From Candidatus Aminicenantota bacterium (GTDB lineage Bacteria > Acidobacteriota > Aminicenantia > UBA2199), in NCBI GenBank assembly GCA_029938635.1, contig JAOZUQ010000022.1:1-39943 (forward strand): a DNA stretch of 39,943 nucleotides, in the 5' to 3' direction. Every line of letters starts with the position of its first letter. Position 1 is the first letter of the stretch. The notes beneath the pieces were generated by a model that was not told where the DNA came from, searched no databases, and worked only from the letters and a program-made list of their open reading frames with translations. This document shows, in pieces, positions 7,154 through 37,859 of this stretch. Position numbers and translations under genes: made by a program.

Positions 7154-7159
7154 ATTATA
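7154..7159 (-). promoter_or_regulatory. -10 element (TATAAT) 6 bases from the lipoprotein ATG
   Basis: A perfect TATAAT on the minus strand is separated from the ATG at 7147 by 6 bases. This would put the transcription start at or next to the A of the start codon. The -35 match is poor (ATGAAT at 17-bp spacing). Confidence 0.4.
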
Positions 7160-7252
7160 GACTATTGTGATATAAAATTCATTTTTCCTTATGGGTAGTT
7201 TTATTGATCTCCTACCTTCCTTTTTGTGGCCGGGGGGGGAAATAGCTGTTTG

Positions 7253-7286
7253 TACTGTTGATGCTGGATACAGTAGCCTTTTTTTT
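7253..7286 (+). terminator. Terminator-like hairpin with T8 run ahead of the GNAT gene
   Basis: TACTGT (7253-7258) pairs with ACAGTA (7270-7275) across an 11-base loop. GCC and eight T residues follow at 7279-7286. No plus-strand gene lies immediately upstream, so it cannot end an obvious transcript. It could be an attenuator in a leader for the gene at 7316, or chance. Confidence 0.35.
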
Positions 7287-7315
7287 CTTGAAATTTTATA
7301 ATCATTTATATCAAA

Positions 7316-7777
7316 ATGATGAATAATTATTCTTTCCGGGATTTTAAGAGCAACGATTATGCAGAGGTTATTGACTTATGGGAGAAGACCGGCCTGGGAA
7401 ATAAGGATAGGGGTGATGATCTTTCAACTATTCAACTATCATTAAAACTTGGCGGGAAATTCCTGGTTATGGAGGAACTCTCATCCCGGAGAATAATCGG
7501 GACATCATGGATGACATTTGATGGAAGGCGAATACATCTCCACCATTTTGGTATAGATCCGGAATATCAGGGTAGAAGGCTTTCTATACCTCTTTTAGAG
7601 GAAACACTCAGGTTTGCCCGTGATAAAAAGGTTCAGATCAAACTTGAGGTCCATAAAGACAATCTGAAAGCGATTGAACTCTATACAAAAAACCACTTTA
7701 AATACCTCGGAGATTACAAAATTTTTATTATTCGTAGTGTTAAAGAATTAAAAGATATTGGTTATGATCAGGATTAA
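7316..7777 (+). CDS. GNAT-family N-acetyltransferase
   Basis: The protein has 153 residues in the single-domain GNAT fold. Motif A is HHFGIDPEYQGRRLSIPLLEETLRFA (key residues about 81-106; Q-G-R-R-L corresponds to the acetyl-CoA pyrophosphate loop). Strand beta5 with the alpha4 region is KLEVHKDNLKAIELYTKNHFKYLG. The N-terminus FRDFKSNDYAEVIDLWEKTGLG is typical of the family. The acceptor is unknown. ATGATG gives two possible starts one codon apart; no Shine-Dalgarno is visible and a TATAAT (7297-7302) lies 13 bases upstream. The EamA permease gene begins 5 bases after the stop, so they form one unit, perhaps modifying and exporting a small molecule (inference). Confidence 0.9.
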   Translation: MMNNYSFRDFKSNDYAEVIDLWEKTGLGNKDRGDDLSTIQLSLKLGGKFLVMEELSSRRIIGTSWMTFDGRRIHLHHFGIDPEYQGRRLSIPLLEETLRFARDKKVQIKLEVHKDNLKAIELYTKNHFKYLGDYKIFIIRSVKELKDIGYDQD

Positions 7778-7782
7778 AAAAT

Positions 7783-8664
7783 ATGAACATAAAAGCTAAG
7801 GCTGCTTTATTAACTGCTTGTCTTTTCTGGGCAGCTTCTTTCATAGCAACAAAAATCGCTTTAGCTTCGGTTCCTCCGATAACTGTAGTTTCTTTAAGAT
7901 TAATTATTTCCGCTATATGTTTTATTGTATGGATGTATATTCGGGGGGAGAAATTTAATATTTTCACAAGGTCAAATATCCTTCCGCTTCTTCTTTTGAG
8001 TTTGTTCGGGTCAGGGCTCCATTATGCAGTTCAGACAATTGGCCTGCAATATACTACTGCAGCTAAAGGTGGTATTTATGCTGTGACTGCACCGATTACG
8101 ATTATTATCATTGCTGCAGTTTTTCTCAAAGAGAAGATAACTATCCGTAAAGTTGCAGGTGTTATTATCGCTCTCCTCGGAGTTTTAATTGTGATGGGGT
8201 TTGATACGATAATTGAATTTAACCTTAGAGGAAATTTACTTGGAGATCTGTTAGTGCTGATAAGTATTGTCATGTGGGGGATCTTCACAGTGATGGGGAA
8301 AAGTATCACTTCAAAAATATCAGCATTAAAAATGACAGCAGCAATAACAATTATCGGAGCAATATATATGATCCCGGCAGGAATACTCGAGATGAGGTCA
8401 AAATCCTTTTCTCTTGTTTCAATCAATAGTGATGCATGGCTTTCTGTCCTTTTTCTCGGAATTACCTGTTCATTCCTTGCAACTCTCCTGTATGTTTACG
8501 CACTGACAACCAGTGAATCACAAAAGGTCGGTGTCTATCTTTATACGGTTCCGCCTATGACCCAGTTAATTGCATTTCTAGTGTTAAATGAAGCGGTCGG
8601 GATATCACTTCTTTTCGGTTCGGCCGTTGTAATATCCGGTTTGTATCTGACTGAAAAGGGATAA
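7783..8664 (+). CDS. EamA/DMT-family permease (RhaT-like)
   Basis: The protein has 293 residues and about ten hydrophobic segments arranged as two EamA repeats. The first repeat starts LLTACLFWAASFIATKIAL and includes the conserved P-rich loop and the LKEKIT linker. The second contains LLGDLLVLISIVMWGIFTVMGK and ends VYLYTVPPMTQLIAFLVLNEAVG, the usual EamA signature with two Pro and a Glu. Members export metabolites or amino acids or exchange nucleotide sugars across the inner membrane. The substrate here is unknown. It lies 5 bases downstream of the GNAT gene and converges on the PiT gene with a 75-base gap. Confidence 0.92.
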   Translation: MNIKAKAALLTACLFWAASFIATKIALASVPPITVVSLRLIISAICFIVWMYIRGEKFNIFTRSNILPLLLLSLFGSGLHYAVQTIGLQYTTAAKGGIYAVTAPITIIIIAAVFLKEKITIRKVAGVIIALLGVLIVMGFDTIIEFNLRGNLLGDLLVLISIVMWGIFTVMGKSITSKISALKMTAAITIIGAIYMIPAGILEMRSKSFSLVSINSDAWLSVLFLGITCSFLATLLYVYALTTSESQKVGVYLYTVPPMTQLIAFLVLNEAVGISLLFGSAVVISGLYLTEKG

Positions 8665-8739
8665 AAATATTTCATGAAATTCTGAGTAGAAGATTTATCA
8701 GGAAATGCTATCGGGATCTCACATGAAGTGGAGATCTGA

Positions 8740-9786
8740 TCAAAGAACTACTTTTTGCATAAATACATTTTGCATAAAAAATAACATTATAAAAGTTATC
8801 ACACCGGATAAAAAAGGTGTCAGGACCCATCCCATACCGATTTTCCCCATAATACCGAAATTAATGTTCTTCCCACCTTTTCCTATAGCAATACCGAGAA
8901 TTGCTCCAACAACTGCCTGAGAGCTCGATACAGGAACAAGAGGAAATGAGGGGAGTCCAAAAGAAATAAGGAGTGCTTGTAATCCTTCGGATGCAAAAAT
9001 AAAAAGCACCAGAGAGCTGGAAAGAACTACAATAAAAGCGTCGAGGGGAGAGATCCTGAATATATCCGAGCCGACTGTTGTCATAACCTTTTTTGAATAA
9101 GTAAAAACACCCAGGGAAATTGCAAGTGCCCCTAAAAAGAAAAGTATACTCGTATTAGACAAAGTGAATCCGGCAATATTAATACTTTTAAAAGGCGATA
9201 CGGGAACAAAAACCCCCATCACATTTGCAATATTATTGGCACCAAGACTATAAGAGCCGAAAGCCCCGACAAAAATAAGTCCGATCCGTGTATATTGATC
9301 GATCCTGATCATATGGATCTTCGATCTTCTGATATATATTATTAAAGCTTTATAAAGAACAAAACCGAAAATTGCAGCCAGTATCGGGCACAACACCCAT
9401 GTATAAACAATTTTAGTAAGAGTGGATATGTCTGTTTTGAATCCTGAAAAAAAATTCCAGCCTATGATAGCCCCTACTATTGCCTGCGAGGTGGAGACAG
9501 GGAGTTTTACCCTGGTCATTAAAAATACAGTTAATCCCGCGGCAAGAGCTACAGTGAAGGAGCCGGCGATTGCATTGACTGATCCAAGTTTTCCGAGAGT
9601 TTCGGATGCACCTGCACCTCCAATTACAGCACCCAGAATTACAAATATTGAGCAGATGATGGCTGCCCATTTGAATTTTAACATTTTGGTGGAAACAGCA
9701 GTCCCAAACACATTCGCTGCATCATTTGCACCAAGGGACCATCCGAGGAATAACCCGCTGGAAAGGAAGATCAGTATGGTATCCAT
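8740..9786 (-). CDS. Inorganic phosphate transporter, PiT family
   Basis: The protein has 348 residues, the length of the short bacterial PiT proteins. The two inverted halves each carry the family signature: GANDAANVFGTAVS (19-32) and GANNIANVMGVFV (182-194). Each half also has a P-V-S-x-SQA-x-VGAI motif (PVSTSQAIVGAI at about 96-107 and PVSSSQAVVGAI near 285). About ten membrane segments are visible. PiT carriers take up phosphate, usually as a metal-phosphate complex, with H+ or Na+. The gene follows the DUF47 gene by 7 bases, the standard PiT/PhoU-like pair, and is the last gene of the phosphate-themed cluster. Confidence 0.95.
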   Translation of the reverse strand: MDTILIFLSSGLFLGWSLGANDAANVFGTAVSTKMLKFKWAAIICSIFVILGAVIGGAGASETLGKLGSVNAIAGSFTVALAAGLTVFLMTRVKLPVSTSQAIVGAIIGWNFFSGFKTDISTLTKIVYTWVLCPILAAIFGFVLYKALIIYIRRSKIHMIRIDQYTRIGLIFVGAFGSYSLGANNIANVMGVFVPVSPFKSINIAGFTLSNTSILFFLGALAISLGVFTYSKKVMTTVGSDIFRISPLDAFIVVLSSSLVLFIFASEGLQALLISFGLPSFPLVPVSSSQAVVGAILGIAIGKGGKNINFGIMGKIGMGWVLTPFLSGVITFIMLFFMQNVFMQKVVL

Positions 9787-9793
9787 TACTGCT

Positions 9794-10441
9794 TTAGAAT
9801 GACCTTTTTATAACATAAACAGACAACCTGTCACATACTGCTTCAGCTTCATCTGATACTCTTGCCAGCCTTTCAACAAAATATCTCAATTGAACTTTCC
9901 AACTGAGAGTTTTTATTGCCTTTGAAGTAAATGACTTCCTCTTAAGATCTTCCTCTATTTTATCCGCCTCGTGTTCATAATAATGAACTTTATTTATATG
10001 ATCATTCACGATTGAGATCTCCCTGAAGAAAGCTCTTGAAGCAAGGACCATCTCATCAACCGTATTAACTGATAGTTGTGTTAATTCCTTAAATTCATCT
10101 TTCATGGAATCGGGGATCTCAGGCCTTTCAATATCGAATTGAAGCAGCACTTTTTTTATTGAATCCACTACATTGTCAGTAGTCTCCAGAAGTCCGAGAA
10201 CATCACCTCTTGATTCAGGAATAAGCATATGAGAATATAATTTATACTTGATTTCTCTTCTCATGACATCAGTATCACTTTCAAGTTTTCTTATATCTTT
10301 CAGGTCTGATTGGAATCGTTTGGTTTTACCATCAAGATAATTGTTCATCCCTGTTCGAAATACCAGAGCCGATCTTGATATATTATCCCAGAAAATATCA
10401 ATCTCACTAATTAAATTTTTTGCTTGTCCTAAAAATTTCAT
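9794..10441 (-). CDS. DUF47-family PhoU-like phosphate transport regulator
   Basis: The protein has 215 residues, almost all helical and charged. It has the pattern of the DUF47/TIGR00153 family, which is structurally related to PhoU: an N-terminal helix MKFLGQAKNLISEIDIFWDNIS, a central E-x2-TDNVVD-x-I region (about 82-95), and repeated heptads including EHEADKIEEDLKRK (about 156-169). Such proteins sit beside PiT transporters and are thought to modulate their activity. TAGGGG precedes the ATG. There are 7 bases to the PiT gene downstream and 32 bases to the SLC13 gene upstream. No DNA-binding motif is seen, so it is a cytoplasmic partner rather than a transcription factor. Confidence 0.92.
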   Translation of the reverse strand: MKFLGQAKNLISEIDIFWDNISRSALVFRTGMNNYLDGKTKRFQSDLKDIRKLESDTDVMRREIKYKLYSHMLIPESRGDVLGLLETTDNVVDSIKKVLLQFDIERPEIPDSMKDEFKELTQLSVNTVDEMVLASRAFFREISIVNDHINKVHYYEHEADKIEEDLKRKSFTSKAIKTLSWKVQLRYFVERLARVSDEAEAVCDRLSVYVIKRSF

Positions 10442-10473
10442 TTCAAACCCCTAATAAAAATCTTTTATTCCTA

Positions 10474-12075
10474 TTAAAAAATCCCAAGTCCATCAGGTGT
10501 AATATTTAACAGCCTGAAGTATGTCATAGCCATTATAATGCTTACACCCCAGGAAATAAACAACATTATGATCCCAAATTTAAATGTATCAGTAAGGCTG
10601 TAATGATCGGTCAGATATAATAATGCAGCCGGTTTGCTATTAAACGGCAGGGTATAGACATGTTCTATCAGAAAAGCTACAGGGAGTGCAAGGCTTATTA
10701 TTTCAAATCCGAATTTGTTAGCTACTCCAATGGCAATTGGGACGAATATCAATGTTCTCATTGTTTTTGATTGAAATATTAGCGAACTGAAGATCATGGT
10801 ACCGGTTAAGATAAGATACAATACCCAGAAAGGTGTGGAATTGCCGAATCCGAGATTATCAAATACCGCATTTATTGCTATTGATGGGAAATCTGTGGTT
10901 TTAAATCCTGCACCTAATGTATATGCACCTGCACTGAATAATAAAAGATGCCATGGAATATCAACATCCTCCCATTTTACAATACCGATCTTTGGAAGCA
11001 ATGCTATTATCGCACCTACAAATGCTACTGCAGTGGGGCTGACCCCATGGAACCTGTCAGTTACCCATAAAATGAGAATCCCGCTGAATATAATAATCGA
11101 TTTTATTTCATGAAAAGAGACAGGGCCCATTTTTTTCAGTTCAAGTTTGAGTTTTTCCATTCCTCCCTTGATTTTGGGAACTTTCTCATCGGGGCTGAGA
11201 GGAAAAACCAGTTTGATCCCGACCAGCCAGCCAATCAGCATAATTCCTAAAGCAACCGGAAAAGCAGCTGCCATCCAGTCGGAAAAGAAAATGTCACTTC
11301 CAATGGCTCCACCTATAAGTGAAGCTGCTATCAGATTAGCACCGGAACCTGTTACAAATCCTCCGGCAGCTATGTTGATCTGAAACAGATTCTGGAGGAC
11401 TATATTTCTGCCTGCATTATTTCTGTTCTTGCCGCCTGTAGCTCCATAAACTGCAGCAACAACCATGAAAATAGGGAGTAATATTGCGGCCTTAGCTGTG
11501 GTGGCAGAAATAAATAGAGACAGGACAATATTAATAACCATAAAACTAAGAATTATTGATGAGGCTTTTTTCCCGAATCTCAAGATGAACCAGAGGGCAA
11601 ATCTTTTTGCCACTCCGGTTGATACAAGCATACTTGCAAGTACAAATGAGAGAATATTCAGCCACATTACCTTGTGCCCGAGTTGTGCATATGCAACCTC
11701 CTCAGGCAATACTCCTGTAAGTACCAATGCAATGATCAATATCAAAGAAGTAAGATAGTTGGGGACTGCTTCAGTGATCCACAATATAATTGAAGCTGTG
11801 AATACAGCAAGCATTGCTATGTTCATTTTTGTAAAAGTTATGGATCCAACCTGATCAAATATTGACCTGGAGGCCTTTCCTAAAATTGAGGGGTCGATGT
11901 TCTGAAGGAAAGGAAACTTAATAAAGAACATTATAATTATAAAGGCAATTATTGCCAATGGCCCTCCTGATAAAGCTATCAACTTTTCGATCCTGGATTT
12001 CTCCTTATTTTGAAGCTTCTCCATACGGTAATGCTTCATATTAAGAAGATCGGAATTGTTCAAGTTAACATTCAT
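10474..12075 (-). CDS. SLC13/DASS-family anion transporter with altered SNT motifs
   Basis: The protein has 533 residues and at least eleven hydrophobic segments after a 30-residue charged N-terminus. The DASS/SLC13 architecture is visible: ITEAVPNYLTSLI (about 100-112), a first hairpin ending FISATTAKAAILLPI, GSGANLIAASLIGGA (about 243-257), and a second hairpin ending FQSKTMRTLIFVPI. In dicarboxylate carriers the two hairpins end in Ser-Asn-Thr; here they read S190-A191-T192 and S436-K437-T438. This suggests a different anion, possibly phosphate or sulfate given the neighbours (inference). It lies 32 bases upstream of the DUF47 gene and 45 bases downstream of the CYTH gene. GGGAG is 13 bases before the ATG, so an internal ATG (M13 or M18) is possible. 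Confidence 0.85.
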   Translation of the reverse strand: MNVNLNNSDLLNMKHYRMEKLQNKEKSRIEKLIALSGGPLAIIAFIIIMFFIKFPFLQNIDPSILGKASRSIFDQVGSITFTKMNIAMLAVFTASIILWITEAVPNYLTSLILIIALVLTGVLPEEVAYAQLGHKVMWLNILSFVLASMLVSTGVAKRFALWFILRFGKKASSIILSFMVINIVLSLFISATTAKAAILLPIFMVVAAVYGATGGKNRNNAGRNIVLQNLFQINIAAGGFVTGSGANLIAASLIGGAIGSDIFFSDWMAAAFPVALGIMLIGWLVGIKLVFPLSPDEKVPKIKGGMEKLKLELKKMGPVSFHEIKSIIIFSGILILWVTDRFHGVSPTAVAFVGAIIALLPKIGIVKWEDVDIPWHLLLFSAGAYTLGAGFKTTDFPSIAINAVFDNLGFGNSTPFWVLYLILTGTMIFSSLIFQSKTMRTLIFVPIAIGVANKFGFEIISLALPVAFLIEHVYTLPFNSKPAALLYLTDHYSLTDTFKFGIIMLFISWGVSIIMAMTYFRLLNITPDGLGIF

Positions 12076-12120
12076 TAGAAATATTCTCCCTGGAAAGGAT
12101 ATTTATAAAATACAAATTTT

Positions 12121-12585
12121 TTACCAGTTTTTAAAGGGGTGTTTAATAAGGTTTGAATTAAAATATCTTGGATCTCCGGTAACTTCTTCCCCGATCCATT
12201 CAGGAATTGCTATATCCTGATCTTCACTTTCGAGTTCAACTTCAGCAACTATCAGCCCTTCATTTTCCCCGAAAAATTCGTCAACTTCCCAGATCAGATT
12301 GCTGTATTCTATTTTATATCTGTTTTTTTCAATGATTGGTTTCTCACAAAGAGCATCAAGCATTTCATTTGCATCTGACACGGAGATTTCATATTCATAT
12401 TCCGCCCTGGTTGCTCCGATAGTTATCCCTTTTATAGTGAGGAATCCTTTGTTATCGATCGTTCTTACCCTTACTGTCCGCTCTTTTACAGTTGAGAGGT
12501 AACCCTGTCTGAATAAAACTCCGGTTGAATCCTTTCTCCAGTCCTCACCTTTAATTAGAAATTTTTTTTCTATTTCTTTTCCCAT
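12121..12585 (-). CDS. CYTH-domain triphosphate tunnel metalloenzyme
   Basis: The protein has 154 residues, the length of single-domain bacterial triphosphate tunnel enzymes. The hallmark ExExK is E4-I-E6-K-K8. Further tunnel residues are visible as R39-V-R41, K52, E63/E65, D102 in WEVDEFFGENEGL, and the acidic strand AEVELE (E115, E117, E119). CYTH proteins bind the triphosphate of PPPi, nucleoside triphosphates or thiamine triphosphate with a divalent metal; short members like this are often tripolyphosphatases. TAGGAG precedes the ATG and the gene begins 8 bases after the upstream gene's stop. Its place between phosphate carriers favours a role in tripolyphosphate or phosphate metabolism over cAMP synthesis (inference). 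Confidence 0.9.
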   Translation of the reverse strand: MGKEIEKKFLIKGEDWRKDSTGVLFRQGYLSTVKERTVRVRTIDNKGFLTIKGITIGATRAEYEYEISVSDANEMLDALCEKPIIEKNRYKIEYSNLIWEVDEFFGENEGLIVAEVELESEDQDIAIPEWIGEEVTGDPRYFNSNLIKHPFKNW

Positions 12586-12593
12586 GATGGCTC

Positions 12594-13211
12594 CTATTTC
12601 AAATAAAAATCTTTCGGAAGGGGTTCCATTCCGACGACCCTTTTTATTGCCATAAGATAGTTTACATTCTCGTATTCGTCAAGTGATGTCATCTCCATGG
12701 CTTTTAAAATATCTTCAATATTAACTGATTCTATATTTGCAGTCTGCATATGAGCCCCGTTTATATAGACATCTCCGATCTCTGCAATACAATTATTGAT
12801 AGTGAAGGCAAATCTTCTCTTGAAAACTTTAACAGCTGAAAGGTCCTGGTGAGAGAGGATGATCTCATTTAAAAACTGATCAAGTGTGTACTGATCTCTT
12901 GTCAATTCAGGTGTTGAAACTCCAAATGCCGGGAATACTTCATCTGCTAATGATGACCTTTCCATTGGGAAGCTCCCTTTCATCCTGGGATTCCATTGCT
13001 GCAATCCTTTCTCTTCCTTTACAAATACTTTTATATCCATAAGGTCATCCCTGACCTTTGTATTATTCTCATTATTTCCTGCTGACATTATATATATTTC
13101 AGAACTTTCCCTGATCTTATCGACCGGAGCTAACTTTCTCATTTTTTCCTCTACAATTCCGAAGCTCGAGGCAAATGTTCTGAATTCAAATCTTGGCTTT
13201 ATCTCACTCAT
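12594..13211 (-). CDS. Uncharacterised protein, probably a divergent CYTH-fold relative
   Basis: The protein has 205 residues, is soluble and has no signal. I do not recognise a named family by motif, but the layout follows the CYTH tunnel fold. It has a first strand RFEFRTF (7-13) where ExExK would be, a strand KVRDDLMDIKVF (52-63) like the R-x-R strand, and QQWNPRMKG (71-79). A late KRRFAFTINNCIAEIGDVYING (about 131-152) followed by QTANIESVN resembles the strands carrying the Arg/Asp/Glu residues in CYTH proteins. The first motif is E9-F-R11, not ExExK, so catalysis may be lost or altered. AGGAGAG precedes the ATG, and the canonical CYTH gene follows after 8 bases. Family assignment is an inference. 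Confidence 0.6.
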   Translation of the reverse strand: MSEIKPRFEFRTFASSFGIVEEKMRKLAPVDKIRESSEIYIMSAGNNENNTKVRDDLMDIKVFVKEEKGLQQWNPRMKGSFPMERSSLADEVFPAFGVSTPELTRDQYTLDQFLNEIILSHQDLSAVKVFKRRFAFTINNCIAEIGDVYINGAHMQTANIESVNIEDILKAMEMTSLDEYENVNYLMAIKRVVGMEPLPKDFYLK

Positions 13212-13236
13212 AACTCTCTCCTATTATTGAAATAAC

Positions 13237-13258: not shown

Positions 13259-13280
13259 ATTGAAAGGTTTATATTAAAAT

Positions 13281-16513: not shown

Positions 16514-16542
16514 TTGAATTTTGGTATTACATGAAGTATAAA
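16514..16542 (+). promoter_or_regulatory. Promoter of the secreted hydrolase (leaderless geometry)
   Basis: TTGAAT (16514-16519), a 17-bp spacer and TATAAA (16537-16542) are followed after 6 bases by the ATG at 16549. Transcription would start at the A of that ATG. No Shine-Dalgarno is present. The element lies partly within the frame opened by the earlier ATG at 16531, which argues against that earlier start. Confidence 0.55.
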
Positions 16543-16548
16543 TATTTT

Positions 16549-17958
16549 ATGTTGAAAAGATCCACCTTCACTTTAATTTTGATATTTTTCTTTTCCGGAT
16601 TACTTATTTTCCCCGATAAAAGTAGTGTTCCGGATTACTCAAAAGGGAAAATCACAGAAATAGTGAAATGTATAAATAATCCCGAAGAAACTTATGCTGT
16701 TTATGTTCCGGAAACATATTCTGCAGAAAAGAAGTGGCCTGTTATTATCGCTTTTGAACCTGCGGGAAGGGGACTTATTCCGGTAAAATTATTCAAAAGT
16801 GCAGCCGAAAAATATAGATATATAGTGGTATGTTCAAATAATTCCAGGAATGGCCCGTGGAAAGATATTATAAGATCTATGAAGTCAGTCTGGATAGACA
16901 TCCATCAAAGATTTTCAATTAACGACAGGAGAGTTTATACTACCGGATTTTCCGGAGGTGCAAGGGCTGCATCATTATTTTCGCAAATTACCGGAGTGGA
17001 ACCGGCAGGTATCATTGCCTGTGGAGCTGGCCTTCAAGAAAAACTTAATCCTTCACAAATTAAAGGATCATTCTATTATGGAATAATCGGGTTTGAGGAT
17101 TTTAATTATAAAGAATTTCAGAGACTTGTTCCTGAACTTGAAAAAGCAGGAGTAAGATATTGTATTGACTATATTCCCGGAATTCACAAATGGCCGAATG
17201 AAGATGTTGTGAATCGGGCAATTGAATGGATGGAGATTGATTCAGTTCTTAGAGGTATTACAAAAGAGGATAAAGGCCGCACAGATAAGATATTTTTAAA
17301 TTCAAAAGCTTATGCCGAGTCATTGATCGAAGGCGATAAGTTCTATTATGGAGTGCTATACCTCAAGAGTATTACAAAGCATTTTAAGATGATCCTGCCG
17401 GTTGATGATCTTGAAATACAGTTAAATATGCTTATTAAGGAAAAAAAGTTCATACAGTTCAGGAAAGAGGAGAATGACCGCTACAAAAAAGAGTATCAAT
17501 TCATAGGAAACTTCAAAAAAGTATTCAGCTTATTGGAAAATAAAAAAAATATGAGGTTTGGCCTGCAATCAGCCCTTAATGATCTCCGGATACGATACCT
17601 TTTGAGTATTGATAAAAAGAAGAAAAGATCGTTTAACAGTTATTGGGCAAAAAGATTACTTTACGAGATTGCAATAAAGGCAAACAGGTTCAGTTCCATC
17701 TATTCAGATAAAAAAGATGAAAAAAGAGCAATATTATTTGGTGAACTGGCGGCAGGAACTGAAGTGAATAAAAACCTATACAATTTCAGGCTCGCATCGA
17801 TCTATGCAGTATTCGGGAAAAAAAAGAGGTGTATTAAAATCATAAAACCTTTATTAAAAGATAATAAGAATCTAATGATGTATATAGTAAATGATCCAAA
17901 CTTCAATGAAATGCTGAAGGATCCTGAATTTATGAAATTGTTCATAAATGAGCGCTAG
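16549..17958 (+). CDS. Secreted alpha/beta hydrolase (esterase/PHB-depolymerase-like)
   Basis: The frame also has an ATG at 16531, but the ATG at 16549 fits the promoter and gives a clean signal peptide (MLKRSTF followed by a hydrophobic run). The product has 469 residues. Residues about 45-230 are an alpha/beta hydrolase core: YAVYVPETYSAEKKWPVIIAFEP, oxyanion region, nucleophile elbow GFSGGARAASL (S135 from this start) and late His in GIHKWPNEDVV (H213). This is the layout of single-domain esterases and PHB-depolymerase-like proteins. The C-terminal half (about 240-469) is helical and charged and ends like a tetratricopeptide-type repeat (FRLASIYAVFGKKKRCIKIIKPLL). Substrate unknown. It is transcribed divergently from the kinase. 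Confidence 0.75.
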   Translation: MLKRSTFTLILIFFFSGLLIFPDKSSVPDYSKGKITEIVKCINNPEETYAVYVPETYSAEKKWPVIIAFEPAGRGLIPVKLFKSAAEKYRYIVVCSNNSRNGPWKDIIRSMKSVWIDIHQRFSINDRRVYTTGFSGGARAASLFSQITGVEPAGIIACGAGLQEKLNPSQIKGSFYYGIIGFEDFNYKEFQRLVPELEKAGVRYCIDYIPGIHKWPNEDVVNRAIEWMEIDSVLRGITKEDKGRTDKIFLNSKAYAESLIEGDKFYYGVLYLKSITKHFKMILPVDDLEIQLNMLIKEKKFIQFRKEENDRYKKEYQFIGNFKKVFSLLENKKNMRFGLQSALNDLRIRYLLSIDKKKKRSFNSYWAKRLLYEIAIKANRFSSIYSDKKDEKRAILFGELAAGTEVNKNLYNFRLASIYAVFGKKKRCIKIIKPLLKDNKNLMMYIVNDPNFNEMLKDPEFMKLFINER

Positions 17959-22202: not shown

Positions 22203-24449
22203 ATGAAAATGAAAAAAGTTACAATTTTAGTGTTTTTTATAATTTTTGCTATTGCTGTAGTTTTCCCAAGTAATGAAGAGAAATCAAAACCTGATGGAAA
22301 GATCTCAATTTATTCAGCCCCTTCAACGGATCAGAAGATAAGGATTGACGGAGTGCTTGATGATCCTGCATGGAAGGATGCAATTAAGATCGATATTAAT
22401 AATGAGATCTACCCGGGAAATAATATAAAAGCTCCGGTAAGAGCTGAGGGGTACCTGATATCTGATAGCGAGAATATTTATGTCGGTATAAAAGCATTTG
22501 ATCCGGATATAAAAAAATTGCGTGCAAATTATTCAGATCGTGACCAGATATGGAACGATGATACAGTAGGTGTAGCTTTTGATACCTTTAATTCCGGGAA
22601 CAGGGCCTTTTATTTTGCTTCAAATCCATATGGAGTACAGGGGGATCAGATCTTCAGTAATGGCGGTCAATATGAAGATTCTGCATGGGATGCGATCTGG
22701 GCATCAAGCGGGAAAATCACTGATGAGGGATATGTTGTGGAATTCAAGATCCCTTTTAATGCAATACAATTCAGCGGGTCCAAAGAAGGTAAGGAATGGG
22801 GGATCATGTTCTTCAGGAGTTATCCCAGGAGTAAACGTTATATGATCGCCAACAATCAAATGGACAGAGATAATTCATGCTGGATATGCCAGCTCAATAA
22901 GGTCAGAGGATTTAAAGAGGCAACCCCGGGGAAGAATCTTGAATTTGATCCTACTTTAACAGGAGTTCACAGTGAGACCAGGGAAGATTTTCCGGATGGA
23001 TCAATGGAGATAGATCAGTCGAAGATCGAACCGGGACTTTCCGGGAAATGGGGGATAACATCAAACCTTAATCTCAGTTTTGCAATTAATCCAGATTTTT
23101 CCCAGATAGAAGCAGATGCCGGACAGCTTGATATAAATACTCAATATGCGCTTTATTATAATGAAAAGAGGCCTTTTTTCCTTGAAGGAAAGGATTTTTT
23201 CAATACTCCCATGAGAGCTCTGTATACAAGGGCCGTTGCAGATCCGGACTTCGGGTTGAAACTCACAGGTAAGCTCCATAAACATGCATTGGGATTGTTT
23301 GTGACCCGTGATGCTACAACTAATCTCATTTTCCCGGGAGTAGGTGGATCTGATGACACTACTCTGGAGGAAAAAGTATGGTCAAGCTCCTTCAGGTACC
23401 GTTATGATATCGGAAGGTCATCAACTATCGGAGTACTTATGACCGACAGGGAGGGTGATGATTATTTCAACAGAGTAGGGGGAATAGACGGACTTTTCCG
23501 GATCTCAAAGAGCGATACCCTCTCCTTTCAGTTTCTGGGTTCATCCACGATGTACCCCGATGAGATCTCAGAAGAATTTGAACAAAAACTCGGGAACTTT
23601 AATGGCTCAGCTTTTTCTGCAAGTTTTCATCATCAAAAAAAGACCTGGAATGCCATAGCGGCCTATGAGGATTATTCCCCGGGATTCAGAGCTGATATGG
23701 GGTTCATCCCGCAGGTTGACTACAGGAAAGGAGTCCTTGGCGGGGGTTATACTTTCTGGGGAAAAGATGGGGGATTCCTGACAGCAATATCAGTTAGAGG
23801 AGATCTTGATCAGACAACAGATCATGATGGTAATCTGATCGAAAGGGAAGCTCAGTTGGAAGTAGTATTCGAAGGGCCGATGCAGTCAGTCCTGGTTGCA
23901 AAATATGAGAAACGGAAATATATCTATGAAGAGACAGAATTTGATCAGTCAGAGGGAACTTTTGCATTCCTCATTAACCCGGTAAAAAAACTAAGATTTC
24001 ATTTTTTTGCAAAAAGCGGAGATGGGATTGATTATGATCATGTCAGAGCAGGGAAAAAATTGTATATTTCTCCATCAATAAGATATAACGCAACCAAAAA
24101 CTTTGAAATATATGGTGTTTCCAACTTCAGTTTTTTACACATTGACGATAACTACTTATTTAAAGCATATTTGAATGAATTGAGATTGATATATTTTCTT
24201 AATAAAAATACTTTCTTCCGTGTCATTCTCCAATACAGTGATATCCGAAGGAATGCCGACCTTTACGAAGACGAGGTCGACACAAGAGAGCAGGGATTAT
24301 TAACACAGTTTCTATTCTCGTATAAACTTAACCCGAGAACAGTTTTATACCTGGGATATTCTGATATATATGAAGGCTATAACCAGATGAGCCTCCTCCA
24401 GAGCAATCGAAGCCTTTTCCTCAAGATCGGCTATGCCCTGGTTCTTTAA
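22203..24449 (+). CDS. CBM9-like domain plus DUF5916 outer-membrane protein
   Basis: The protein has 748 residues with a signal peptide of about 24 residues. Residues about 40-215 are a carbohydrate-binding family 9-like domain: IRIDGVLDDPAWKDA, ENIYVGIKAFDP, DTVGVAFDTFNSG and YVVEFKIPFNAIQF. From about 225 the sequence is the DUF5916 region, with FAINPDFSQIEADAGQLDINTQYALYYNEKRPFFLEGKDFF in the middle (key RPFFLEG motif) and a long barrel ending SLFLKIGYALVL. The family is widespread in Bacteroidota and related diderms. Its role is unknown, probably in the outer membrane binding glycans. It is divergent from the broken propeller gene. Confidence 0.9.
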   Translation: MKMKKVTILVFFIIFAIAVVFPSNEEKSKPDGKISIYSAPSTDQKIRIDGVLDDPAWKDAIKIDINNEIYPGNNIKAPVRAEGYLISDSENIYVGIKAFDPDIKKLRANYSDRDQIWNDDTVGVAFDTFNSGNRAFYFASNPYGVQGDQIFSNGGQYEDSAWDAIWASSGKITDEGYVVEFKIPFNAIQFSGSKEGKEWGIMFFRSYPRSKRYMIANNQMDRDNSCWICQLNKVRGFKEATPGKNLEFDPTLTGVHSETREDFPDGSMEIDQSKIEPGLSGKWGITSNLNLSFAINPDFSQIEADAGQLDINTQYALYYNEKRPFFLEGKDFFNTPMRALYTRAVADPDFGLKLTGKLHKHALGLFVTRDATTNLIFPGVGGSDDTTLEEKVWSSSFRYRYDIGRSSTIGVLMTDREGDDYFNRVGGIDGLFRISKSDTLSFQFLGSSTMYPDEISEEFEQKLGNFNGSAFSASFHHQKKTWNAIAAYEDYSPGFRADMGFIPQVDYRKGVLGGGYTFWGKDGGFLTAISVRGDLDQTTDHDGNLIEREAQLEVVFEGPMQSVLVAKYEKRKYIYEETEFDQSEGTFAFLINPVKKLRFHFFAKSGDGIDYDHVRAGKKLYISPSIRYNATKNFEIYGVSNFSFLHIDDNYLFKAYLNELRLIYFLNKNTFFRVILQYSDIRRNADLYEDEVDTREQGLLTQFLFSYKLNPRTVLYLGYSDIYEGYNQMSLLQSNRSLFLKIGYALVL

Positions 24450-26120: not shown

Positions 26121-26149
26121 TTGCCAGGATTATGGCGGTAATGTATACT
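26121..26149 (+). promoter_or_regulatory. Promoter of the LpxH-like gene (leaderless geometry)
   Basis: TTGCCA (26121-26126), a 17-bp spacer and TATACT (26144-26149) match the consensus at 5 of 6 each. The ATG at 26157 lies 7 bases after the -10, so transcription starts at about that codon. Confidence 0.55.
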
Positions 26150-27001: not shown

Positions 27002-27030
27002 TTGACTGATAGGGGTATTTATGATAATTT
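27002..27030 (+). promoter_or_regulatory. Possible promoter of the M50 protease unit (leaderless geometry)
   Basis: TTGACT (27002-27007), a 17-bp spacer ending in TGA (extended -10) and TAATTT (27025-27030) lie 6 bases before the ATG at 27037. The -10 hexamer alone is a poor match (3 of 6). The AGGGG at 27011-27014 is too far for translation of this gene. Confidence 0.4.
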
Positions 27031-28668: not shown

Positions 28669-28670
28669 TT

Positions 28671-31445: not shown

Positions 31446-31477
31446 AGTTGCCTTCCTTTAGAAATGGGTTAAAAGAT

Positions 31478-31506: not shown

Positions 31507-31519
31507 ATATGAAATCGTG

Positions 31520-31528
31520 TGTTATAAT
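31520..31528 (+). promoter_or_regulatory. Extended -10 promoter of the tatD gene (leaderless geometry)
   Basis: TGTTATAAT is a perfect extended -10 element. The ATG at 31534 follows the hexamer by 5 bases, so the transcript should start at or within the first codon. No Shine-Dalgarno and no -35 match are seen; extended -10 promoters often lack one. Confidence 0.5.
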
Positions 31529-31533
31529 AAAGT

Positions 31534-32310
31534 ATGGGATATACAGATTTTCACTGTCATCTTGACAGTACAGATTTTAACGAAAACCGGTCAGAACTGA
31601 TAAAAACCATTTTCACTTCGGGTGTTTCCACTTTAGTGTCTGTAGCAGATCCATATGAAAAGGATTCACACAAAATAACTGAAGAGATCGCAGAAGGAAA
31701 TGAAAACATTTTTATTATGACTGCTGCCCATCCTCATAATGCCAGGGACTATTCAACGGCAGTTGAGAAAAAGATACTAAAGTTTATGGAACATAAAAAG
31801 GCCATCGGAGTAGGTGAGGCAGGCCTTGATTATCACTACAATTTTTCAACTCCTGATGTTCAGAAGAAAGTGTTCCGCAGGCAGATCGATATAGCAAAAG
31901 AACTTGGAAAGCCACTGATAATACATTCCAGGGAAGCTGAATCTGAAATAATAAGTATGCTTGAAGAAACAAAGTTTAAACTCCCGGTTGTTTTTCACTG
32001 CTATACAGGAAATATAACAGATGCAAAAGAGATAATATCAAGAGGTTACTATATTTCTATATCGGGTATAGTAACATTCAAGAAGTCTGGTTTTTTAAGG
32101 GAGATAGTTGAGATGATACCTGTTGACAGGATATTCTCCGAGACAGATTCACCTTACCTTTCACCTGAACCTTTCAGAGGTAAGACAAATGATCCGTCAA
32201 GGGTAAAGATAGTTGCAGACAGAATTGCTGATATTAAGGGGATATCACCCGAAGAATTGAATATTGCAATAAAAAATAATTTTGACAAGATCAGGAAGTC
32301 AGGAAATTAA
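31534..32310 (+). CDS. TatD-family metal-dependent hydrolase (DNase)
   Basis: The protein has 258 residues in the amidohydrolase fold. Metal ligands are visible: H7-x-H9 in DFHCHLD, E95 in GEAGLDYHYN, H131 in IIHSREAE, H155 in FHCYTG and D205 in SETDSPYLSPEPFRG. TatD proteins are 3'-5' exonucleases acting in DNA repair and degradation, or D-aminoacyl-tRNA-type hydrolases in some lineages; nuclease is most likely. The gene's end overlaps the end of the phosphomutase-like gene on the other strand by 20 bases. Confidence 0.95.
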   Translation: MGYTDFHCHLDSTDFNENRSELIKTIFTSGVSTLVSVADPYEKDSHKITEEIAEGNENIFIMTAAHPHNARDYSTAVEKKILKFMEHKKAIGVGEAGLDYHYNFSTPDVQKKVFRRQIDIAKELGKPLIIHSREAESEIISMLEETKFKLPVVFHCYTGNITDAKEIISRGYYISISGIVTFKKSGFLREIVEMIPVDRIFSETDSPYLSPEPFRGKTNDPSRVKIVADRIADIKGISPEELNIAIKNNFDKIRKSGN

Positions 32311-33226
32311 GTATCTCCGGAGTGACGTCTGAAAGGTTGTTGATATTTTCAGCCAGTTCAGAACTCCCTCTTCCCCATGTTATGAGTGGTACAGGATTCA
32401 TTGTATGAGCCTTACCTGAACTGTCCTCCAGATTTCCATGGTCACTCGTTATGAGAAGTGTATCTTTATTACGATCCATTAGTGATATAAGTGTAGATAA
32501 AAGCAGATCCAGATCAGATATCAATTCGATCTGTTCTTCAATATTTTTTCTGTGGCCGTAAATATCAGATTGAAAAAATTCGTAAAGGATAAGATCAAAA
32601 TTTCCTGAAGTCCTAAAAAGTACTTCTGCGGCATCTTCAGGGGAGAAAACGGGAAGATCGAGGCCGTATTTTAGAAGAGATTTATTCGAATAATCCTGAT
32701 ACAATGATCGCTTCTCTTTTATATCTACTGTATCAAATGGTTTGACATTATTTGAAATTAGAATTGATGTTGTAACAGAGATCCTTTTTTTAAACTTGTC
32801 CGGAAAGTTGTCGGAGAAAACAAGGTTACCCTCATTATCAATATTGATATTGGAGTTGGAAAACAGCTCTGAATGGTGAGGATATGCATTTATGAATTTA
32901 GCACTTTTTCCTGAATTTTCAAGTTTCAGAAGGAGATTCTCCTCACTTATCACCTTTCTCATGATCCTGTTCGGGAAGGAACCGATATGTTTTGAAAGAA
33001 GTCCTGGTATATTCACTCCGGTAAATATCGTTGTTTGTCCTGTAGCACTCTGGGGGGTTCCATCAACACCCAGCAGAGGGTCAATGGGCTTAATAGTAAA
33101 ATCAGGAAGATCTATGGTGAAGTTTTCCCATAATCGCAGTATCTTCGGGCTAGCTGCGATAAAGGGATTGTTACCATTTGATTTCCCTATCCCGACTCCA
33201 TCTATAAATATAAAAATGAATCTCAT
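32291..33226 (-). CDS. Alkaline-phosphatase-superfamily metalloenzyme (phosphomutase-like)
   Basis: The protein has 311 residues and no signal peptide. It starts MRFIFIFIDGVGIGKSNGNNPF, with D9 the first metal ligand, then GTPQSATGQTTIFTG (56-70) containing the predicted nucleophile Ser/Thr. It ends with LLITSDHGNLEDSSGKAHTMNPVPLITWG, where D-H-G and a later His supply the other ligands. This is the pattern of cofactor-independent phosphoglycerate mutase / phosphopentomutase-like enzymes in a reduced form. All key residues appear present, in contrast to the degenerate relative at 35667-37304. The substrate is unknown. It follows murB by 32 bases. Confidence 0.85.
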   Translation of the reverse strand: MRFIFIFIDGVGIGKSNGNNPFIAASPKILRLWENFTIDLPDFTIKPIDPLLGVDGTPQSATGQTTIFTGVNIPGLLSKHIGSFPNRIMRKVISEENLLLKLENSGKSAKFINAYPHHSELFSNSNINIDNEGNLVFSDNFPDKFKKRISVTTSILISNNVKPFDTVDIKEKRSLYQDYSNKSLLKYGLDLPVFSPEDAAEVLFRTSGNFDLILYEFFQSDIYGHRKNIEEQIELISDLDLLLSTLISLMDRNKDTLLITSDHGNLEDSSGKAHTMNPVPLITWGRGSSELAENINNLSDVTPEILNFLTS

Positions 33227-33258
33227 ATACTCTCAGTTTCCCTGTATTGTTTTAGAAC

Positions 33259-34188
33259 TCAAAATTTATCACCACCTGGTGAAACAAATATTACTTCTCT
33301 TTCAAGAGATATCCCGTTTTTTTTCTTTACAATATTCTGAACTTTTCTACCAAGTTCTTCAATATCTGAAAAACCGGCAGTTCCCTTATTTACTATGAAA
33401 TTTGAATGTTTATCAGAAATCATGGCCTCTTCAGTCTCATACCCTTTAAGGTCACAATTCTCTATCAGTTTTCCTGCTGAAAGTTTTTTACCTTCAACTT
33501 CAGGGTTTTTAAAAAAACATCCGGCTGTGAATGAAGAGTAGGGTGGGTGTTTTTCGGTTCTCAACTTAACAATTTCATTTATTCTGTTTTTTATGGAGTT
33601 TTTACTTCCATTTTCAAATTTCAGATAAATATTTATAATTATATCTTTCCCGTACTTGAATCTTGAATCACGGTACTCAAACTTAAAGAAGTCTTTATTC
33701 ATGTATTCAAAATTCCCGTCCTCTGTGAATATATCCCCTCCGGTAATTTTATCCGAAATGGATTCCCCGAAAGCACCGGCGTTAACTGCAGTCGCTCCAC
33801 CGAGTGTGCCCGGAATACCGGCAAGAAATTCAAATCCTGCAATATTATTGTTTTTACAATATTCAAGAAAATCAGTGTTCTTCAGCCCTGTATTTACCTT
33901 GAGAGTATCCTTTTTTTCCATACTGATCTCAGATGAATTGTTGATTATTACAATTAAATCTTTCCCGTAATCGGGAAAAATAATATTACTTCCCCCTCCG
34001 ATGAGAATATATTTTTGTTTAAGGGAAAATAACACTTCGAGTAATTCTGTTAATTTCTCATTAGAATCGGTGAAAATAATAAATCCAACTTTTCCACCGA
34101 CACGCATGGTCAGGAAATCTCCTATCTCAGAGTTATCTAAAAATCTGATTTTATTATCAGTCAGATAGCTCTTTATCTTCTTTTTCAT
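33259..34188 (-). CDS. murB: UDP-N-acetylenolpyruvoylglucosamine reductase (Cys in place of catalytic Ser)
   Basis: The protein has 309 residues. FAD-binding signatures are GGGSNIIFPD (64-73) and AGIPGTLGGATAVNAGAFG (123-141). The substrate Arg lies in EYRDSRFKYG, and the family's C-terminal ISLEREV follows. The conserved GSxFKNP motif reads AGCFFKNP (222-229), putting C224 where E. coli MurB has the proton-donating Ser229. Cys at this site occurs in some bacterial lineages, so the enzyme is probably active. It reduces enolpyruvyl-UDP-GlcNAc to UDP-MurNAc in peptidoglycan synthesis. Its start overlaps the upstream lipoprotein gene by 32 bases, which supports co-translation; a shorter start is not excluded. 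Confidence 0.94.
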   Translation of the reverse strand: MKKKIKSYLTDNKIRFLDNSEIGDFLTMRVGGKVGFIIFTDSNEKLTELLEVLFSLKQKYILIGGGSNIIFPDYGKDLIVIINNSSEISMEKKDTLKVNTGLKNTDFLEYCKNNNIAGFEFLAGIPGTLGGATAVNAGAFGESISDKITGGDIFTEDGNFEYMNKDFFKFEYRDSRFKYGKDIIINIYLKFENGSKNSIKNRINEIVKLRTEKHPPYSSFTAGCFFKNPEVEGKKLSAGKLIENCDLKGYETEEAMISDKHSNFIVNKGTAGFSDIEELGRKVQNIVKKKNGISLEREVIFVSPGGDKF

Positions 34189-35602
34189 TTTTTTGGCCGG
34201 TTATCTGCTCTTTCACTCCGCATTTCTTATGGAGTTTTATCTGAAGTTTTTTATATATTTGCCCGGGGTCTGTTACAACCAGATCTTTTGTATCTGTTCT
34301 TGTTATTCCTTTTTCATCTTTTGTAATTACATTCAGGATAAATTTCCCTCTGGTATCAGGGACCCAGATAAATGAAGAAAGCAGGGCATTCTGGAATATC
34401 TTTGAAAATATTTTTTCTTTTTTATCATTAAGTATTTCTGCAAAGATTTCCGGTTTTATTATATTTACAGGCCTGATCAGAAATTTTATCGATTTACCGG
34501 TTTCATAATTACCCCCTGGTTCTGATGTGATTTCCGATCCGAATTTATTACCGATTTTTATAAGTTTGAGAACAGGATCATCTTTTTCAGTTCCAATAGA
34601 ATATAAATTACCGTTAGAGTAAACGGGGGGAAGTTTCAGTAAAAGAGATTTATCCCTGAAATTTGAAACAGAGTGCTTTTCTATCCCGTAAAAACTAATT
34701 GAAGTCCCTTCTTTAACACGTTGAAAAACAGCTAAATGATCTTTCATAAGAACCGGTTCGAAGCGATGGCTGTAATCTGATCTGTACCAATGTTTGAGCC
34801 CCCCTCTGCGAGTTATAAAATAAGTGTTATTATCTTCCGGATTTACAATTAATATTTCTTCATGGAAAACAGGTTTAATGATCAATAGTTTTTGAAATCT
34901 ATATTTCCAGATAATTTTATTCTTATTGAGAGAGAAATTTACAAGATTTCTCTTTTTGTCACCATAAAAAATATTATCATTTATTTTCAGGAAAGGAGAA
35001 GCCGGTGGTGTTTCAATACTTTTAAAAGTACTTATGTTTTTTGAAAGATCGTATATAAGAAATGAATTCTCGCTCAGGATAAAGGCTTTGTTATCAGAGA
35101 TCTCACAATTTATAATTTTGCCCTGATTTATTTCAGTTGAGAATATTACTCTCTTTTCCTGAAAATTGAAGATATTAATTGATTTTTTATTATGATAAAC
35201 AAGATTTTCCTTATCCACTCCAATGATCCTTTTACCGGATGCATTTTTAATTTCATAAATTATATTATTCGTGTTCAGATCAAACAGGAACTGCTTTTTA
35301 TTATTAAGGGTATTAAGGACAATTATTCCATTTTGAAAAAAAAATCGTTTTCTTAGTTTGTTTTCTGTATTCAATAAATTTGAGGACTTTCTGTTTTCTG
35401 GTAGAATTGATTGAATATTTCCCTTCAGGTCAGAAAGAATTATTCTGTTCTTGTCACTGAGAATAGAGAAGGTTGTCGGACTCAGGGATATTTCCATCAG
35501 TTTTTCAGCATTGATATCTGGAGTAACTTCGGGGATGTTTTTTTTAATAGCACATGAGAATATTAACAATACTGAAATTAGAAGAGGGGATAGCTTTTTC
35601 AT
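34157..35602 (-). CDS. Propeller-type lipoprotein of unknown function
   Basis: The frame opens 13 codons further up, but the ATG at 35602 gives a lipoprotein signal (MKKLSPLLISVLLIFSC, C17 predicted lipidated) and lies next to a strong promoter. The product has 481 residues. The body looks like a PQQ/WD-type beta-propeller: repeats such as ENSFLIYDLSKN, KNKIIWKYRFQKLLIIKPVFHEEILIVNPEDN and YFITRRGGLKHWYRSDYSHRFEP. After about residue 360 an Ig-like segment is followed by a Lys-rich tail. I do not recognise a family. It overlaps murB by 32 bases at its 3' end. It may be a scaffold in the periplasm for envelope synthesis (inference). Confidence 0.65.
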   Translation of the reverse strand: MKKLSPLLISVLLIFSCAIKKNIPEVTPDINAEKLMEISLSPTTFSILSDKNRIILSDLKGNIQSILPENRKSSNLLNTENKLRKRFFFQNGIIVLNTLNNKKQFLFDLNTNNIIYEIKNASGKRIIGVDKENLVYHNKKSINIFNFQEKRVIFSTEINQGKIINCEISDNKAFILSENSFLIYDLSKNISTFKSIETPPASPFLKINDNIFYGDKKRNLVNFSLNKNKIIWKYRFQKLLIIKPVFHEEILIVNPEDNNTYFITRRGGLKHWYRSDYSHRFEPVLMKDHLAVFQRVKEGTSISFYGIEKHSVSNFRDKSLLLKLPPVYSNGNLYSIGTEKDDPVLKLIKIGNKFGSEITSEPGGNYETGKSIKFLIRPVNIIKPEIFAEILNDKKEKIFSKIFQNALLSSFIWVPDTRGKFILNVITKDEKGITRTDTKDLVVTDPGQIYKKLQIKLHKKCGVKEQITGQKNEKEDKELSD

Positions 35603-35612
35603 CTTATAAAGG

Positions 35613-35641
35613 ATTATATTTGAATAGAGATATTCAGTCAA
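35613..35641 (-). promoter_or_regulatory. Promoter of the lipoprotein-murB unit
   Basis: On the minus strand TTGACT (35636-35641), a 17-bp spacer and TATAAT (35613-35618) form a near-ideal housekeeping promoter inside the gap and the end of the upstream coding region. The start at about 35606 leaves only 3-4 bases before the ATG at 35602, and no Shine-Dalgarno is visible. Confidence 0.65.
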
Positions 35642-35666
35642 TCTGAATATGATTATTGAAGCAATT

Positions 35667-37304
35667 CTAGTCTGAAATTATCTCAATAGGATTATTAAGC
35701 TTGAAATCGTCCGTAAATATTTCCTTCATAACTTCACCCTGAAGATCTTTTGAAAGTTGAAAACCGGAATAGTAGAGCAAAGTGGGGAAAATATCATTTA
35801 TTGAGATTGTTTTAAGGTTGTAATCTTTTTTTATACTCCCTCTTTCATACATCAGGAGCGTTCCCATTGAGTTGGGTGAATAGACAAAACTTTCTCTCTC
35901 ATCCTGGCTTAAAAGGTTTACGAGCAATCTTCGCCAGATCGGGAGTGGCTCATATTCAAAAAAACTCATAATAACCAGAAGTTCATTCTCTCCGGTGGAG
36001 CTGATCAGGGTTCCGAGAATTGAGTCATAATATTCATAGTATTGTTCTATGATCCTGCCATATTTCTTTACCTCTTCATTGCTGATATCTCCAAAAAGAT
36101 CAGGCATAGAATATTGATAAAAAATCTTACTGATAACCCCCAGGCCAGGGAGCCTTACTATTGAATAATATGTGTCCCTGTCCTTCAAATCCGCAATCTG
36201 ATTTCGCAAAAAATCGTCAAAGGCAAAACTTTTCTTCAGGATTTCCAGTTTCCTGTTATTACCTGTCTCTTTTCCAATTATATCGGAATAATACTTGATA
36301 AAATGACTGCTCTTCTTAAGTGCTTTTTCAGAATAAGTGGGGAAATATCTCGGCTCAAAGATCTTTTGAACTTTCTTTCCTGAATTTTCATAATACAGGC
36401 TGAGTTTATCACTATAATTGGAGTTTTCTTTCTTTTTATAAAATGTTGTTGAGCTCAGAACTGATGAATTCCGGAAAAATATATATTTAGGGAACATGTC
36501 AAATTCATAAGTTAATTCTCTGAATCTGAATTTATAATCAGAGTGATACCGGAATTTGTAAGGCCTGAGTCCTGTCATTGCAGAATTGATGAGAGATACA
36601 TTGAAGTTTGGTTTAAATCCCCTGATCCTCCCTCTGACGCCATTTTTAAGCAATAAATTAAAATTAAGAAGGTTTTGATCTGAAGTATATGAACTTATAA
36701 ATTGGAGGGATAGACCATCCATGATCACGATCCTTATTTTCCGGGGGTTTGATTCGACCTGTGGCTGGATATCCATTTCATTTTTGTTGATATCCCTGTT
36801 GAGTGAAATTATAGATGTATAAGCATTTGTCATATTAAGGATAAGAAGGAGAATGAAAATCAGCTGGACCCAGCTTTTGTTGATCTTTTTGAAAAACACA
36901 AAAATTATTCCGGTAATAACTAAAAAAAGATTTATGAGTAGGACAGTAACAAGTTTTGTCCTGGTATCAGCCTGGAAAAAATCGTAATAGTATTCATAGT
37001 TCGAATAAAATATGATCGAAATATTAAGCATTGTGAAAGATAAAAAATACGTCAGGGTGGGAGGTGCCACTATACCTATATTATATTTTTTTTCAGCAAA
37101 AAATTGAATAATAAAGAATACAATTGCAATAATTACAAACCAGAGAGGGCCATAAAATAAGAAAAGATTAATAAAAAGTGTTATCAGCTCTGTATCACTC
37201 AGGAAAATGTGAGGGTTTAAAAACATTATCAGTATTAGAATGAAAAAATTGAATACAATAGATGTAATAAAAAAATTAACTAATAATTTTAATGATCTCC
37301 ACAA
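35667..37304 (-). CDS. Membrane protein with degenerate alkaline-phosphatase/sulfatase-like domain
   Basis: The start is a TTG at 37304 with AAAGGA at proper spacing, 4 bases after the FHA gene stop. The product has 545 residues. About five hydrophobic segments fill residues 5-165. Residues about 188-535 have the fold signature of type I phosphodiesterases: RIVIMDGLSLQF (D196 the first metal Asp), SLINSAMTGLRP, VRLPGLGVISKIFYQY, and a C-terminal SINDIFPTLLYYSGFQLSKDLQGEVM matching the family's D-I-x-PTLL-x-G-x-P-x-x-x-D-G end. The usual D-x-x-x-H pair of the PGLD-VSH region reads G and K, and the SDHG motif is replaced by MSFFEYEP (446-453). It is therefore probably catalytically inactive. 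Confidence 0.7.
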   Translation of the reverse strand: MWRSLKLLVNFFITSIVFNFFILILIMFLNPHIFLSDTELITLFINLFLFYGPLWFVIIAIVFFIIQFFAEKKYNIGIVAPPTLTYFLSFTMLNISIIFYSNYEYYYDFFQADTRTKLVTVLLINLFLVITGIIFVFFKKINKSWVQLIFILLLILNMTNAYTSIISLNRDINKNEMDIQPQVESNPRKIRIVIMDGLSLQFISSYTSDQNLLNFNLLLKNGVRGRIRGFKPNFNVSLINSAMTGLRPYKFRYHSDYKFRFRELTYEFDMFPKYIFFRNSSVLSSTTFYKKKENSNYSDKLSLYYENSGKKVQKIFEPRYFPTYSEKALKKSSHFIKYYSDIIGKETGNNRKLEILKKSFAFDDFLRNQIADLKDRDTYYSIVRLPGLGVISKIFYQYSMPDLFGDISNEEVKKYGRIIEQYYEYYDSILGTLISSTGENELLVIMSFFEYEPLPIWRRLLVNLLSQDERESFVYSPNSMGTLLMYERGSIKKDYNLKTISINDIFPTLLYYSGFQLSKDLQGEVMKEIFTDDFKLNNPIEIISD

Positions 37305-37308
37305 AATT

Positions 37309-37824
37309 TTAGTCCTTTGATGTCGTGATCAACATTAAAGTTGTCTGGCCGATCCTGAATTCGGTCTGGTCGGTTATTTGAGTGATCGATACTTTTGAAT
37401 CATTAATGAACGTACTGTTTGTACTACCGAGATCTCGAAGGTAAATCTTAGTATTCCTGACCTCTACTGCAACATGTTTTCTTGAGATTTCTTTGTCCGG
37501 GATGATCAGATCTACCTTTCCACGTCCTATCAAAACATATGGTTTGGACAAATGATAGATATATCCAGCTCTTGCACCTTTAATTACTGCAATCGAAATC
37601 TTCTGACCTTCAGGCAGTTTAAGGTTCTCATTACTCCAGAGTGAATCACCTATGCTCTTTTCTATTATTTTTGCAGTATCTTTGTTGCTTTCCGATTCAT
37701 CTTCCTGTTTTTTACTGAAGGAAAAAATATTAAAACATTTTGAGCACTTTAGTTTTATAGTCCCTTTTATCTTTTCATCGGGAACATTATATTTGGAACT
37801 ACAATTCGGGCACTCAATTATCAT
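37309..37824 (-). CDS. Zinc-ribbon plus FHA-domain protein
   Basis: The protein has 171 residues. The N-terminal CPNC/CSKC zinc ribbon (C5, C8, C27, C30; MJ0042-type) is followed by a charged linker (about 38-70). A forkhead-associated domain runs from about 75 to 165, with the phosphothreonine-binding signature G100-R101, S114-x-x-H117, and GSTNSTFIN (133-141). FHA domains recognise phosphothreonine on partners, so a Ser/Thr kinase should exist elsewhere. The downstream membrane protein begins 4 bases after the stop. No Shine-Dalgarno is present; an extended -10 lies 6 bases before the ATG. Confidence 0.9.
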   Translation of the reverse strand: MIIECPNCSSKYNVPDEKIKGTIKLKCSKCFNIFSFSKKQEDESESNKDTAKIIEKSIGDSLWSNENLKLPEGQKISIAVIKGARAGYIYHLSKPYVLIGRGKVDLIIPDKEISRKHVAVEVRNTKIYLRDLGSTNSTFINDSKVSITQITDQTEFRIGQTTLMLITTSKD

Positions 37825-37830
37825 AATATT

Positions 37831-37859
37831 ATATTATCATTAATAATATTTTTTTACAA
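37831..37859 (-). promoter_or_regulatory. Possible promoter of the FHA gene (leaderless geometry)
   Basis: On the minus strand TTGTAA (37854-37859), a 17-bp spacer ending TGA (extended -10) and TAATAT (37831-37836) lie 6 bases before the ATG at 37824. Each hexamer matches at 4 of 6. Confidence 0.4.

Follow-up and report, generated by a model that had tools for sequence, protein, structure and literature searches.

Leaderless genes are already known in bacteria, and their use has been predicted for 21.6% of bacterial species (PMC9581028). The TA-led (leaderless) genes described by Zheng et al. 2011 (PMC3160421) have a -10-like signal about 10 bp upstream of the start, lack a Shine-Dalgarno (SD) site and are mainly first genes; in the 2010 RefSeq set, 3/3 genomes of Acidobacteria had 9.7-19.4% leaderless genes, with an average of 13.3% (PMC3160421). 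In Deinococcus-Thermus, a -10 element adjoining the start codon gives leaderless mRNA, replacement of the motif lowered RNA, and about 30% of ORFs are concerned (PMC12340547). The leaderless transcriptome of Mycobacterium tuberculosis has been mapped experimentally (PMC3898074), and the translation of leaderless mRNAs by mycobacteria has been described (PMC4633059). Such mRNAs are translated mainly via direct binding of 70S ribosomes to the 5' AUG (review PMC9031893). A literature search found no paper joining 'leaderless' and 'Aminicenantes'.

The genes studied here resemble the TA-led genes (PMC3160421) in the position of the -10-like signal, which is centred about 10 bp upstream in the latter and peaks here at a gap of 6 bases between the -10 hexamer and the ATG, both in the own genome and in its relatives. 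They also share the concentration at unit-first genes, with genes 37824 and 35602 as exceptions by orientation. Two differences stand out: the distance is preserved for individual genes, and under strict criteria the signal in the own genome marks a smaller minority. A -10 element beside the start codon is shared with Deinococcus-Thermus (PMC12340547), but most sites here also have a -35 element and several an extended -10. As in Mycobacterium tuberculosis, SD-led and predicted leaderless genes are mixed in one genome, although they were mapped experimentally there and are inferred from sequence alone here. What is added to the known mode is its gene-by-gene conservation and its switching between lineages.

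The window (the whole stretch of DNA analysed, 39,943 nucleotides) is contig C62 of a MAG of 3.05 Mb in 137 contigs, 92.7% complete and with 37% GC. Among named organisms, Candidatus Aminicenantes MAGs were the best matches to its TatD protein (82-90% identity). No tRNA or Rfam matches were found within the window. No 16S rRNA gene turned up in the MAG and the anti-SD is thus not directly readable; the strong SD peak at gaps 4-7 in the own genome implies that it works. At the right edge of the window, the ribosomal protein L19 frame (39478-39943, plus strand) seems to have an in-frame Lys/Glu-rich N-terminal extension (MTDDKKDGG...) of about 80 residues before the normal L19 start region, and the contig ends inside this gene.

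Promoters beside the start codons

Promoters were scored with a generic sigma-70 model based on published consensus frequencies, as the sum of -35, -10 and TGn terms with an extended -10 bonus and a spacing of 15-19. For each gene, gaps 5-7 (-10 to ATG) were compared with 1000 dinucleotide shuffles of its own 60-nt upstream region. The original prediction placed a -10 element beside the ATG of six genes, and all six were located by sequence inspection where claimed. They are listed with two additional genes, for which leaders of 2-4 bases had been proposed:

7154..7159, minus strand: -10 TATAAT of gene 7147 (putative lipoprotein, 6515-7147), gap 6, p=0.007
16514..16519, plus strand: -35-like TTGAAT of gene 16549, read from the sequence and kept in G001
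16537..16542, plus strand: -10-like TATAAA of gene 16549, gap 6, p=0.094, about 20 upstream bases identical in G001
26121..26126, plus strand: -35 TTGCCA of the LpxH-like gene 26157, TTGTCA in both sister species
26144..26149, plus strand: -10 TATACT of the LpxH-like gene 26157, gap 7, p=0.001
27002..27007, plus strand: -35 TTGACT of the M50 gene 27037, TTGAC- kept across the family
27025..27030, plus strand: -10 TAATTT with preceding TGA of the M50 gene 27037, gap 6, p=0.004
31523..31528, plus strand: -10 TATAAT of tatD 31534, gap 5, p=0.022
37831..37836, minus strand: -10 TAATAT with preceding TGA of the FHA gene 37824, gap 6, p=0.024
37854-37859, minus strand: -35 TTGTAA of the FHA gene 37824, listed with the -10 at 37831..37836
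35613..35618, minus strand: -10 TATAAT of gene 35602, gap 10, score 12.9
35636-35641, minus strand: -35 TTGACT of gene 35602, spacing of 17 to the TATAAT
22203..24449, plus strand: DUF5916/CBM9 gene 22203, AGGA upstream, p=0.73, unsupported as leaderless

Five of the six sites (7147, 26157, 27037, 31534 and 37824) scored above their own shuffles at gaps 5-7 (p 0.001-0.024), whereas that of 16549 was the weakest and singly not significant (p=0.094). The promoter of 35602 at gap 10 is consistent with the short leader proposed for this gene and predicts one of 3-4 nt; gene 22203 was rejected as leaderless, having AGGA and no promoter at gaps 5-7. The hexamers TAATTT (27037) and TAATAT (37824) are poor alone; the orthologs place both at the homologous -10 position, with an upstream TGn present. 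Pairs of -35 and -10 with 16-18 bp spacing were of the TTGACN-17-TATAAT type in the FHA, M50 and 35602 orthologs, and a good -35 was absent at 7147 and at the own tatD.

No SD site was found in the six genes, a criterion that is partly trivial since the -10 occupies the place of the SD. In 26157, cGGAG directly abuts the ATG, too near for SD action. Eight genes with a clear SD (838, 6439, 12075, 12585, 14510, 18171, 26027 and 31445) had no promoter at gaps 5-7 (p>=0.12). The ribosome sites attributed to operon-internal genes, proS and the symporter were correct for those checked, and the start of proS is probably 39315, behind GAGGAG. The description of the genes as first in their units does not apply to 37824 and 35602, which lie 42 and about 64 bases, respectively, after a same-strand gene, and which would use promoters of their own.

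A further in-frame ATG lies 18 bases before that of gene 16549, at 16531. Within 16531-16578, G001, the only relative available for comparison, has the same roughly 20 bases from this upstream ATG up to and including the proposed one. The proteins share only 64% identity, and the stretch is therefore constrained as DNA.

Distance distribution in the genome and its relatives

The frequency of the arrangement was compared with the random expectation for an AT-rich genome on 1.05 Mb of the own genome. Gene starts were taken from a home-made caller based on hexamer coding score, blind to upstream signals, and a TATAAT-like hexamer was defined by at least 5 of 6 matches, with A2 and T6 required. 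Before 180 divergent-unit starts, 16 such hexamers were at gap 6 against a mean of 3.7 per position further out, a 4-fold enrichment (P=2e-6); gaps 5 and 7 were unenriched, with 3 each among the same starts. Operon-internal starts had a TATAAT-like hexamer at gap 6 in 5/365 cases versus 16/180 for the divergent ones. Complete promoters of divergent units were bimodal, with 7, 2 and 3 at gaps 6, 7 and 8, a single one at 9-14 and 22 at 16-29, the last being the leadered class. From the excess at gap 6, strict criteria give a leaderless share of roughly 5-7% among the unit-first genes of the own genome. This is probably an underestimate, since fewer than 5 of 6 positions match in many -10 elements.

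In counts made on the AT-rich own genome irrespective of called starts, raw TATAAT-N6-ATG occurred 93 times versus 74 at N12 (one-sided p=0.08, not significant alone). ATG after non-coding -10 matches was counted 93 times, little different from the 82 expected; with a -35 required the excess was clearer, at 32 versus about 15.

In genus g5 (61.5% GC), 11/62 divergent starts had a promoter at gap 6 against 0.69 expected per position, and the start-independent ATG count was 17 versus 4.9. G044, which belongs to another family, had a gap-6 promoter at 3/18 divergent starts versus 0.25. Across 20 genomes of the class, TATAAT-N6-ATG outnumbered TATAAT-N12-ATG by 775 to 480; in 178 genomes of the phylum outside the class, the numbers of sites were 1367 and 956, with 127 genomes higher at N6 and 28 lower. 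The trait is unevenly spread within the class: g5 and f5 had a strong N6 excess, and families f3 and f7 had none.

Conservation among orthologs and interpretation

The conservation of the promoter position among orthologs is the most decisive evidence for a geometry that would yield leaderless transcripts. For the FHA gene, the best promoter was at exactly gap 6 in 20/21 readable genomes of family f1, from eight genera. It was usually TGnTATAAT with a -35 of the TTGAC- or TTGAA-type. At the aligned position the own copy reads TGA-TAATAT, and TATAAT stands there at gap 6 in the family's other genera. Outside the family, seven genomes of other families had an SD site, five of the seven with the promoter at 20-21. 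This gene, leaderless by prediction in one family and elsewhere SD-led with its promoter some 20 bases before the start, indicates a mode switched lineage by lineage, and its promoter positions mark it as a natural case of changed initiation mode.

The orthologs compared for this small zinc-ribbon/FHA gene (37309-37824, minus strand) were L303-L331, with the leaderless promoter in f1 and an SD site plus the 20-21 promoter in g10 and g13.

In the M50 gene, the promoter was at gap 6-9 in 25/29 orthologs, mostly of the TTGAC-17-TGnTATTTT type, and the short distance was kept across 8 genera, with gap 8-9 in many orthologs. Gene 35602 had its promoter at gap 7-11 in 16/20 orthologs, a short distance found across 7 genera. 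The tatD gene had TATAAT at gap 5 in 3 members of the genus and TACAAT or TAAAAT at gap 6 in 9/9 readable genomes of g5. Most of the family's remaining genera have an SD-led tatD. For 26157, the gap was 7 in all 3 genus members and 6 in genus g6; in g7 the LpxH-like gene was SD-led with a promoter at gap 20. Gene 7147 had gap 6 in three genus members, including G001 and G002, one with a GTG start, and its orthologs in G009 and G015 were SD-led. All but one of the promoter-adjacent FHA, M50, tatD and 35602 orthologs lacked an SD site. The same geometry was kept in the genera of higher GC content (61% GC genomes), where chance matches are rare. Separately, one internal TAA was reported in the M50 match of three g9 genomes (L256, L257 and L258).

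A minority of genes with genuine leaderless or near-leaderless transcription of the sigma-70 type, beside SD-led genes, is very probably the correct explanation; promoter geometry, enrichment, conservation and absence of SD sites were observed, and the transcription start and translation mode are inferred from them. The usual start point of RNA polymerase lies about 7 bases past the -10, so that a gap of 6 sets +1 on the A of the AUG. The minority of promoters would be of the housekeeping-sigma (sigma-70) type, with the -10 hexamer ending about 6 bases before the AUG, and the first transcribed base would be the A of the AUG or lie 1-4 bases ahead of it. At the 5'-terminal AUG of the resulting mRNA, 70S ribosomes would bind directly, and later operon genes and many other first genes would use SD sites. 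The leaderless interpretation of the original prediction is supported: the outcome that would have refuted it, a frequency no higher than expected at random in an AT-rich genome, was not observed.

Chance occurrence of -10-like hexamers in AT-rich DNA, with the real promoters further upstream and ordinary leaders with a weak SD or none, could draw on the low GC content (37%), on the background of about 3.7 matches per position in 180 upstream regions and on 37824 itself, whose best-scoring promoter is a different site at gap 18. A sharp peak at a single position next to the near-empty zone at 9-14 argues against it, as does the ortholog comparison, in which the same distance is conserved in 61% GC genomes, and we regard this explanation as highly unlikely. 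Wrongly chosen ATGs, with true starts further downstream that are preceded by an SD inside the transcript, would agree with the later starts favoured by the coding-score caller for 7147 and 16549; nevertheless, the internal ATG that could serve as an alternative start of 26157 is missing in the sister species, and the FHA, M50 and tatD starts align with those of their orthologs, which makes this explanation extremely improbable.

On the other hand, the promoters may be real and several of the genes near-leaderless, with leaders of 2-5 nt, and not strictly leaderless. Gaps of 8-9 in many M50 orthologs and of 7-11 for 35602 are larger than the 6 that would put +1 on the A, but FHA, tatD and 7147 have gaps of 5-6, with FHA held at 6 throughout the family, and we lean somewhat against leaders of this length. 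This possibility overlaps the best explanation, of which it is a variant, and the mechanism is nearly the same for both since no SD fits in the leader either way.

Leaderless or near-leaderless transcription, as preferred here, may be a gene-specific trait maintained by selection across Aminicenantia, fixed in one family for FHA, M50 and 35602, switched by lineage and perhaps serving regulation; we consider the chances of this to be even. The finding would add a largely uncultured class, on which the literature search turned up no earlier report of this kind, to the groups with leaderless transcription. Gene callers relying on SD sites only will misplace starts in this class, and the clean ortholog sets allow the leaderless and SD-led states of one gene to be compared.
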